In this document: positions 33,166-35,105 of the stretch, one piece after another
How positions within the stretch are numbered: position 1 is the first letter of the stretch
Layout: every line of letters starts with the position of its first letter
Assembly: GCF_002097715.1 (NCBI RefSeq)
Contig: NZ_CP020738.1
Location: 2,790,001 to 2,854,000, forward strand
Length of the DNA: 64,000 nucleotides
Direction: 5' to 3'
Origin: Burkholderia ubonensis subsp. mesacidophila
GTDB lineage: Bacteria > Pseudomonadota > Gammaproteobacteria > Burkholderiales > Burkholderiaceae
Translations under genes and position numbers: made by a program
The notes under the pieces: generated by a model
What the model saw: the letters and a program-made list of their open reading frames with translations, nothing else
Told to the model about the DNA's origin: nothing
Database searches by the model: none

Positions 33166-33909
33166 ATGAGCACCATGTTCGAGAAAATTCCCGCCCGCGC
33201 GATGAGCGATCACGTCGCGCAACAGCTTCTGAAGCAGATCGAGGTCGGCAGTTTCGCGGCCACCGGCAAGCTGCCGACCGAGGCCGTGCTCGCGCAGGAA
33301 TTCGGCGTGAGCCGCACCGTGATCCGCGAGGCGATCTCGCGCCTGAAGAACGAAGGCGTCGTCGAGCCGCGCCAGGGCAGCGGCGTATACGTGAACCAGC
33401 ACGGCGCGATCCGGCCGCTGCGCATCGACTACGCGGAAGCGGTCGAGGCGACCTCGCTGCCGCACCTGCTCGCGGTGCGTCGCGCAATCGAGGCGGAAGT
33501 CGCCGCCGAAGCCGCGCTGCATCACACCGAAGACGACATGGCCGACATCGACGACGCGCTGCGCAAGATCGACGACGCGGTGGCCGAAGGCCGCGACGGC
33601 GTCGCCGAGGACGTCGCGTTCCACCGCACGATCGCGGCCGTCACCGGCAATCCGTATTTCCTGAAGACGCTGCAGTTCCTGAACCAGTACCTCGAAGCGG
33701 GCGTGAAGGTCACGCGCGGCAACGAGGCGACGCGCGAGGATTTCTCGCGGCAGGTTCGCGACGAACACGCGGCAATCGCCGACGCGATCCGCGCGCGCGA
33801 CCCGATGGCGGCGCGCAACGCCGCCCGCACGCACATGTACAACGCCGCCCGCCGCTTAGGGCCTGTTCCCGCTAATAACGGGCTTGCGAACGTGCGTTGC
33901 CGGTCGTAG
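33166..33909 (+). CDS. FadR subfamily GntR transcriptional regulator, C terminus altered by insertion
   Basis: A 247-residue regulator. The winged HTH (GKLPTEAVLAQEFGVSRTVIREAISRLKNEGVVEPRQGSGVYV) is followed by an FCD domain with the metal-site residues Asp/His pattern (EDVAFHRTIAAVTGNPYF; DEHAAIADAIRARDP; ARTHMYNAARR). It precedes the tetronate pathway genes and probably controls them. The last 16 residues (GPVPANNGLANVRCRS) are encoded by the palindromic element that begins at 33857. Without the element the frame would end in TEAGIC after RRL. The FCD domain itself is complete, so the protein is likely functional. Confidence 0.82.
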   Translation: MSTMFEKIPARAMSDHVAQQLLKQIEVGSFAATGKLPTEAVLAQEFGVSRTVIREAISRLKNEGVVEPRQGSGVYVNQHGAIRPLRIDYAEAVEATSLPHLLAVRRAIEAEVAAEAALHHTEDDMADIDDALRKIDDAVAEGRDGVAEDVAFHRTIAAVTGNPYFLKTLQFLNQYLEAGVKVTRGNEATREDFSRQVRDEHAAIADAIRARDPMAARNAARTHMYNAARRLGPVPANNGLANVRCRS

Positions 33910-34146
33910 TGCAAGGAGGAGGAGCGCCGTTTGGCCGAGCCAAACAAGCGACGACCGACGCCGCAATACGGCCGGCAACGCACGTTCCCCTGTTTGGAAA
34001 AATTCATTCGTGGGGCTGGCCGCCAGAAGGGCCGATCGCCGCGTCATGCTCCTTGCGAATACGTCCAGTATTCGCTGCGTCGCAATCCTCGCGCTCGGCC
34101 CTTCTGGCGGCCAGCGCAAGCCCGTTATTAGCGGGAACAGGCCCTA
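33857..34146. mobile_element. 290-bp nested-palindrome MITE-like element
   Basis: Perfect 32-bp terminal inverted repeats lie at 33857-33888 (beginning TAGGGCCTGTTCCCGC) and 34115-34146 (ending GCGGGAACAGGCCCTA). Inside are two further perfect inverted repeats, 33889-33903 with 33972-33986 (15 bp) and 34015-34034 with 34096-34115 (20 bp), each enclosing a smaller hairpin: GTTTGGC-cga-GCCAAAC (33929-33945) and GCGAATAC-gtcca-GTATTCGC (34055-34075). No transposase is encoded. Removing the element with one TA restores an uninterrupted end of the upstream gene, consistent with insertion at a TA target as made by IS630/Tc1-type transposases (inference). Confidence 0.8.
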
Positions 34147-34214
34147 ACGGAAGCCGGCATCTGCTGAACGCGGCGGCCCGCCGCCCTCCTCTCACGAACC
34201 GATCGGGGTTGACC

Positions 34215-35105
34215 ATGTCACGAAATGTTGGAGTCATCGGCCTCGGCGCGATGGGCCTGGGCGTCGCCCGCTCGCTGCTGCGCGCCGGGTTTCGCGTGCA
34301 CGCGTGCGACGTGCGCGAGCCGGTGCTGAACGCGTTCGCGGCCGAAGGCGGCATCGCATGCGCGACGCCCGCCGAACTCGGCGCGCAGTGCGACGCCGTC
34401 GTTACGCTCGTCGTCAATGCAGAGCAGTCCGAAACGGTGCTGTTCGGCGAGCACGGCGCGGTCGCGCGGATGAAGCCGGGCGGCGTCGTGATCGCGAGCG
34501 CCACCGTCGCGCCCGAGTTCGCGGTCGCGCTCGGCCGGCGCATCGAGGCGGCCGGGCTGCAGATGCTCGACGCGCCGGTGTCCGGCGGCGCCGCGCGCGC
34601 GGCGTCCGGCGAGATGACGATGATGACGTCCGGCCCGGCCGCCGCCTACGCCGCATGCGAGGACGTGCTGGCCGCGATCGCCGGCAAGGTCTACCGCCTC
34701 GGCAGCGCGCACGGCGTCGGCTCGAAAGTGAAGATCATCAACCAGCTGCTCGCGGGCGTGCACATCGCGGCGGCCGCCGAAGCGATGGCGCTCGGCCTGC
34801 GCGAAGGCGTCGACCCCGACGCGCTGTACGACGTGATCACGCACAGCGCGGGCAACTCGTGGATGTTCGAGAACCGCGTGCCGCACATCCTGAACGGCGA
34901 CTACACGCCGCTGTCCGCGGTCGACATCTTCGTGAAGGATCTCGGCCTCGTGCTCGACACCGCGCGCCGCAGCAAATTCCCGCTGCCGCTGTCGGCCGCC
35001 GCGCACCAGATGTTCATGAGCGCGTCGAGCGCCGGCCACGGCGGCGAGGACGATTCCGCCGTGATCAAGACCTTCCCCGGCATCACGCTGCCGCCGTCCC
35101 GTTGA
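34215..35105 (+). CDS. ltnD: L-threonate dehydrogenase
   Basis: A 296-residue member of the beta-hydroxyacid dehydrogenase family. The Rossmann motif is VGVIGLGAMGLGVARSLL, substrate binding is DAPVSGGAARA, and the catalytic Lys is in GSKVKIINQLLAG. LtnD oxidises L-threonate to 2-oxo-tetronate, the first step of a known pathway. Identification rests on the adjoining otnK, otnC, otnI and denD. The ATG at 34215 gives the canonical N terminus; the frame stays open upstream through the palindromic element by chance. Confidence 0.85.
   Translation: MSRNVGVIGLGAMGLGVARSLLRAGFRVHACDVREPVLNAFAAEGGIACATPAELGAQCDAVVTLVVNAEQSETVLFGEHGAVARMKPGGVVIASATVAPEFAVALGRRIEAAGLQMLDAPVSGGAARAASGEMTMMTSGPAAAYAACEDVLAAIAGKVYRLGSAHGVGSKVKIINQLLAGVHIAAAAEAMALGLREGVDPDALYDVITHSAGNSWMFENRVPHILNGDYTPLSAVDIFVKDLGLVLDTARRSKFPLPLSAAAHQMFMSASSAGHGGEDDSAVIKTFPGITLPPSR

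Follow-up and report, generated by a model that had tools for sequence, protein, structure and literature searches.

Bacterial MITEs are usually viewed as deletion derivatives of one IS, confined to one or a few genera. The Correia, ERIC, RUP and BOX repeats are defined by their sequence within one or a few genera. REPINs consist of two hairpins in inverted orientation, in which mismatches are conserved, and AAV-type terminal repeats fold into an outer stem with two capped arms.

The element described here occupies 33857..34146 of the window, the whole 64,000-nt stretch of Burkholderia ubonensis subsp. mesacidophila DNA that was analysed. Like the MITEs of the IS5 family (IS427 group), it is short and non-coding, has many copies with T/A flanks, and its ends are common to IS5-family IS of ~815–830 bp. 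Unlike them, it has an interior unrelated to the IS, conserved in its fold and found in many genera with different ends. The intergenic position, the repetition and the strong folding are shared with the Correia, ERIC, RUP and BOX repeats, structured MITE-like elements of a kind mentioned in a 2024 review (PMC10969869). Here, in contrast, the stems are unrelated in sequence, and it is the architecture and the loops that persist over many genera. The REPIN/RAYT system also has an inverted hairpin pair, but it does not have the long IS5-matching terminal repeats or the length of ~270–290 bp. The likeness to AAV-type terminal repeats is one of shape only; no relation is claimed, and the element is not a replicon end.

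We regard the element as probably non-autonomous (MITE-like), with IS5/IS427-type ends on a separately inherited module whose fold is selected, most likely as RNA. What would be new here is a MITE in which selection acts on a fold. The interior is an independent lineage, recognisable by structure over two proteobacterial classes and borne by transposon ends that change. Should the fold act as RNA or as single-stranded DNA (ssDNA), the element would be a selfish element selected for nucleic-acid structure.

In the window copy, the element proper (AGGG...CCCT) spans 33858–34145 between a flanking T and A; the limits rest on the sequence, an inverted-repeat search, the copies and the empty sites. 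The left terminal repeat (33858..33888, 31 nt, plus strand) resembles IS5-type ends at 33858–33873, and past 33873 it belongs to the outer stem and shows no similarity to an IS. Its perfect reverse complement is the right terminal repeat (34115..34145, 31 nt, minus strand), in which 34130–34145 resemble IS5-type ends. The perfect inverted repeat enclosing both arms extends to 33 nt (33856–33888 / 34115–34147, 100% complementary); the sequence-only reading had recognised it as perfect, at a length of 32 bp. Arm A (33888..33987, sense strand plus) has a 25-nt stem of 92% complementarity (33888–33912 / 33963–33987), G.A-rich internal loops and a hairpin at 33929–33945. Arm B (34015..34115, sense strand minus) is an inverted, diverged homologue of arm A, with a 25-nt stem of 96% complementarity (34015–34039 / 34091–34115) and a hairpin at 34055–34075. 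The internal perfect repeats of 15 and 20 bp reported earlier are real stretches but form parts of these longer, imperfect stems, and the further short hairpin noted within each arm was found again on reading the sequence. Between the arms lies a joint of the form CCC...GGG (33988..34014, neither strand assigned), read by eye; its middle is A/T-rich in the window copy, and by eye it takes the form CCC-nnn-GGG in many other genera.

Folding of the transcript, proposed as a check with the initial reading, gave −207.4 kcal/mol for the single-stranded RNA (z = −16.4), and the single-stranded DNA gave −124.7 (z = −16.0); for each, 0 of 200 shuffles were equally stable. The frames within the element overlap the palindromes and are either partial or of 87 aa. 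Judged by eye, none is a transposase of its own, as the sequence-only reading had stated. Rfam returned no family matching at the gathering score in the window, only chance-level matches to eukaryotic families (E 0.45 and above) in a further search, and no match inside the element copies of L064, L066, L071 and L019. No recognisable description of the family was found in open-access full text, with subscription literature and ISfinder outside the scope of that search.

The element is mobile, as its multiple copies and its occupied and empty sites show. Its own genome holds at least 16 near-full copies of the window subfamily (282–318 bp, window copy counted) and at least 4 copies of a second subfamily with other ends and stems (AGGGTCTGTTTACATA...), both counts being lower bounds since the best 40 of 90 candidates were scored. 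Deletion derivatives of the element are also present. The further copies expected in Burkholderia were found, with at least one match in 54 of 61 genomes of the genus, a few of these matches being short and weak. At the window site, the joined flanks used as query are contiguous in 55 of 65 same-genus genomes, and the full orthologous stretch is absent in 8. The site is split by the element only in its own genome and in G019, so the element is not at the same place in all relatives, and the mobility suggested from the sequence is upheld.

The window copy sits in the last codons of a GntR/FCD-type regulator gene (33166..33909, plus strand), the frame of which now enters the element and stops at 33909. 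Downstream lies a 3-hydroxyisobutyrate-dehydrogenase-like gene (34215..35105, plus strand). In relatives without the element, the regulator gene runs on to a shared 3′ end. Clean restoration of the host gene, as claimed earlier, thus holds for this common 3′ end but not for the junction itself, where four bases read TT..AA in the window copy versus CTCG, CTTG or CTGT in the empty sites (30 of 55 aligned). Contact with gene ends is frequent among the insertions: a neighbouring likely-coding frame ends exactly at the element edge in 5 of the 16 own copies (L002, L003, L006, L010 and L014), the frames being judged by codon-position G+C and not by annotation.

The terminal ends point to the likely mover. 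The pattern AGGGNCTGTTNAC, representing the element ends, had 34 matches in the own genome vs 0 in the control. A search of the own genome for the transposase of a matching IS5-type IS gave no match. Seven loci with unassigned ends were considered there as possible IS carrying the element ends, and were set aside as shortened remnants or lone ends; within the 3-kb loci L129, L130, L138, L144, L145, L146 and L149 no partner end was present at IS distance. Outside the genus, the end AGGGCCTGTTAACACT is used in many other genera and occurs in at least 119 stretches in genome contigs. Among the matches listed, 2 of 80 loci have an IS of ~820 bp between AGGGCCTGTTAACACT ends, namely L279 (Pelomonas sp. 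Root1237) and L295 (an Acidobacteria MAG). The L295 IS has two frames, pieces of which match PF13340, PF01609 and NF033580 (IS5 family), the second piece lying above the NF033580 cut-off and the first just below it. Relatives of the IS (70% identity, ~813–819 bp) were found in 5 of the 65 genus genomes (G019, G051, G040, G006 and G048) with ends TAGGGC(C/G)TGTTCACACTA or near variants; the IS of G052 is more distant (39% identity, ~830 bp), with TAGGGTCTGTTTACATT. An IS with the same ends, which the sequence-only reading had proposed to look for, therefore exists in both settings. A study of Paracoccus (PMC3281130) describes captured IS427-group IS of 832–865 bp with short repeats, a gene in two frames with a frameshift motif, and a 2-bp duplication in nearly all of them.

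Subfamily by subfamily, the outer 16 bases of the elements follow the IS5-family (IS427-like) ends of the genus. Family I elements share 15 of their 16 outermost bases with IS L373, CGTG variant elements share 15 of 16 with both L372 and L374, and family II elements share 15 of 16 with IS L378. Past base 16, the element–IS pairs match at 1–4 of 14 positions, which is the chance level. As these ends are common to the element and to IS5-family IS, enzymes of the IS5/IS427 type are the likely movers, and judging from the sequences such a transposase probably moves the element in trans. The covariance model of the arms gave 0 matches in 10 IS loci, which indicates that the arms are not IS remnants. 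With no similarity past base 16 and no arms in these 10 loci, an origin of the interior as a deletion product of the IS was rejected. Outside the genus, the transposase query had no match in 15 of the 18 genomes that carry elements. The IS5 of G637 has ends unlike those of the G637 elements (3 of 5 loci checked). Ends lying far apart or without a partner were inspected at 12 loci of Thiodiazotropha (G709) and G377, the latter contributing one; their ORFs were not transposase-like by eye.

The interior (inner ~255 bases) is a separately inherited structured module and not an IS remnant. Many Beta- and Gammaproteobacteria have it, joined to differing terminal sequences. The arm covariance model was built from 15 sequences and applied at E ≤ 0.001 with 12–14 candidates scored per genome. 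In the order it matches at least 98 of 300 genomes, from 54 of 134 genera; in the class it matches at least 62 of 369 genomes, from 54 of 272 genera. The model is usable for mapping the module in any genome. An enclosing inverted repeat of at least 15 bp was present in 25 of 26 order loci (4 of 30 dropped, short contigs). Of 19 loci from the class search, 3 were dropped, and 15 of the other 16 had such a repeat. Lengths are near constant across genera (outer stem ~31, arm A stem ~25, whole element ~270), and the stems are unrelated in sequence despite this constant architecture. In 25 of 26 elements, 12–15 of the 15 innermost bases of the outer stem were paired, the exception (L003) being an anchoring error. 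Candidatus Thiodiazotropha endolucinida (G709) has 168 end matches. The arm model also matched MAG contigs labelled Zetaproteobacteria (L258) and Acidobacteriaceae (L291, L323), which are possibly mis-binned.

Covariation within the arms, which the sequence-only reading had suggested comparing, agrees with its view that the structure looks selected. The comparison drew on 75 matches from 69 chosen loci, a few of them second arms, which gave 74 distinct arm sequences. Standard pairs filled 91.6% of the pair cells vs 64.5% in shuffled alignments, with 0 of 500 shuffles as high; slid controls gave 32–36%, and 26 of 28 pairs had changes on both sides. As this alignment was fitted to the covariance model, the pairing figures are flattered. 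A smaller MAFFT alignment showed 92.9% paired vs 79.2% shuffled, with 11 pairs doubly changed. Several unpaired positions are near-fixed (A18 in 71, G31 in 74, A55 in 74 and A68 in 73 of 74). A tandem G.A mismatch and C-G pairs occur as alternatives, and mismatched positions stay mismatched. The architecture is kept while the paired letters vary freely, so the fold itself is probably under selection.

The two arms differ in the strand on which they make sense. In 17 aligned elements, arm B corresponds to arm A in reverse complement, with divergence between the two (z 1.8 to 10.7 vs shuffles, several of them weak). In 42 cases the same arm model detects arm B next to arm A, on the other strand. 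Each arm, read on its own sense strand, carries far more G.T than A.C (73 vs 13 in arm A, 57 vs 9 in arm B) and more G.A than C.T (117 vs 6 and 80 vs 3), where the counts are cells of related sequences and not independent events, the covariance model itself favours G.U, and two lineage-shared positions contribute many of the G.T cells. In the analysis of the 74 arm sequences, G.T vs A.C stood at 31 vs 10 with five pairs removed. A model-free control, with stems defined by Watson–Crick pairing only, gave on the plus strand 51 G.T vs 6 A.C for arm A and 5 vs 15 for arm B. Outside Burkholderia, the same control gave 15 vs 4 for arm A and 4 vs 12 for arm B.

Inward polarity from each end is well supported. 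The G.T excess on the inward strand suggests selection on a folded single strand, RNA or ssDNA, and such polarity is not expected from recognition as double-stranded DNA. The sequence-only reading had named DNA hairpins and structured RNA side by side, and the polarity suggests that some single-stranded form is what acts. An RNA made from one strand was considered and dropped, since whole-element mismatches outside Burkholderia had no plus-strand bias (G.T 52, A.C 48, both inflated by L100, L104, L113 and L116, which were paired as one long hairpin). The bias emerges with each arm on its own sense strand.

The strongest competitor to RNA is a fold of single-stranded DNA, formed as lagging-strand hairpins or in a transposition intermediate, that serves the copying of the element with no part played by RNA. 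The inward polarity is equally compatible with folded ssDNA and with RNA, the fold is no less extreme for DNA than for RNA, and the arms stand as inverted equivalents beside both ends. Its weakness lies in the likely mover, a DDE-type IS5 enzyme, together with the IS of the same ends, which have no such arms; no ssDNA step is known for the IS5 family. We consider this explanation unlikely, though a serious contender, and the RNA role of the hairpin is favoured over it by a modest margin of belief.

In the preferred RNA reading, the outer ~16 bases are IS5/IS427-type ends, for which a resident or visiting IS would supply the transposase. The module comprises two inverted homologous arms closed by the outer stem, and in each arm a long stem is interrupted by conserved G.A-rich internal loops and capped by a hairpin. 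What selection seems to preserve is the fold of the inward-running strand at either end; the element is symmetric, so a transcript from either side would meet the sense hairpin first. The fold would then act as RNA in read-through transcripts, and binding or processing of this RNA may allow insertion near gene ends to be tolerated. A fuller version holds that a structured-RNA module, its fold kept over Beta- and Gammaproteobacteria, has repeatedly taken different IS5-type ends, is symmetric with the same hairpin first from either side, and works as RNA with a host partner. We put this version forward tentatively, as somewhat doubtful in its entirety.

Perfect stems could also arise merely through palindrome repair from the other arm by template switching, giving structure without function. 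In the terminal repeats of 45 Burkholderia copies, only 12 of 1395 cells were unmatched, and 47 variant cells were matched at the other end of the same copy (a single common polymorphic position accounting for 18), which fits such repair. The same repair would remove the mismatches that persist in the arms, and it predicts neither the near-invariant loop letters over many genera nor the strand polarity. We think it unlikely as the explanation of the fold, behind the ssDNA alternative.

The junctions were compared with empty sites, which were obtained from relatives for 12 of the 15 further own copies (38 loci); L002, L007 and L009, with half-site matches only, were excluded. Excising exactly AGGG...CCCT usually restores the empty-site length, a result equally compatible with TA duplication or with none. 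Twelve insertion sites were informative, with the window copy included and L010 excluded as a relative keeps a small remnant there. The alignment for a TA duplication, suggested by the sequence-only reading, gave a divided answer. TA was seen at the empty junction in at least one relative at 4 of the 12 sites, namely L003 (1 of 5, with poor alignment there), L004 (1 of 2), L005 (2 of 5) and L006 (3 of 4). At the 8 remaining sites, the window copy among them, TA was in none of the relatives examined; the relatives are other species, in which later change is possible. At L004, L005, L011 and L015, ~2–9 bp are lost vs some or all relatives, and the bases adjoining the element are often altered vs empty sites. 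The missing TA, small deletions and base changes indicate that a plain 2-bp TA duplication is insufficient. TA at both ends, as reported earlier, is correct for the window copy, and T/A flanks occur in most copies (33 and 34 of 45 in Burkholderia).

Such untidy junctions would fit a REPIN/RAYT-like system, in which a tyrosine (HUH) transposase from another locus moves an inverted hairpin pair, as would the inverted hairpins with conserved mismatches and the lack of a detected IS partner in 15 of 18 element-bearing genomes. The 31-bp terminal repeats, with outer 16 bases that track IS5 ends subfamily by subfamily, make this system improbable. A MITE of an IS630/Tc1-type element, the mover proposed by the sequence-only reading, agrees with the TA on either side of the window copy and with the common T/A flanks, but is very improbable now that the IS found with these ends are IS5-family (IS427-like) and TA is absent from the relatives examined at 8 of 12 informative sites, at odds with a strict TA target, with between-species divergence as a caveat.

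Several further observations were made on these sequences. The search of the phage collection for the element gave no match. The plasmid collection contributed 8 records, each 0.87 Mb or larger; two of them carry 3 and 4 annotated features in total, and gene absence in these two is uninformative. AGGGCCTGTTAACACT ends paired 159–283 bp apart occur in L294 (Maribacter MAG) and in L280 and L289 (Acidobacteria MAGs), all labelled non-Proteobacteria. Remnants of roughly only two joined terminal repeats were seen at L138/L139 (own genome, C2:823855-823888), L298, L267 and L326, and also at the G019 site of copy L010 (L191); they apparently arose by interior loss. A longer element lineage in G095 (L064, L070 and L092) has ends GGAATCTCTGATTAAGTCC and additional sequence on the arm B side. 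Finally, a near-identical hairpin module of ~27 nt, CCCCAAGGGnACTTCCTTCGGGGCGC, lies at varying positions inside the arms of Burkholderia and gammaproteobacterium elements, at L010, L012, L013, L014, L021 and L024 in the own genome and at L239, L241 and L242 in Thiodiazotropha (G709); it looks like a second, smaller inserting unit.
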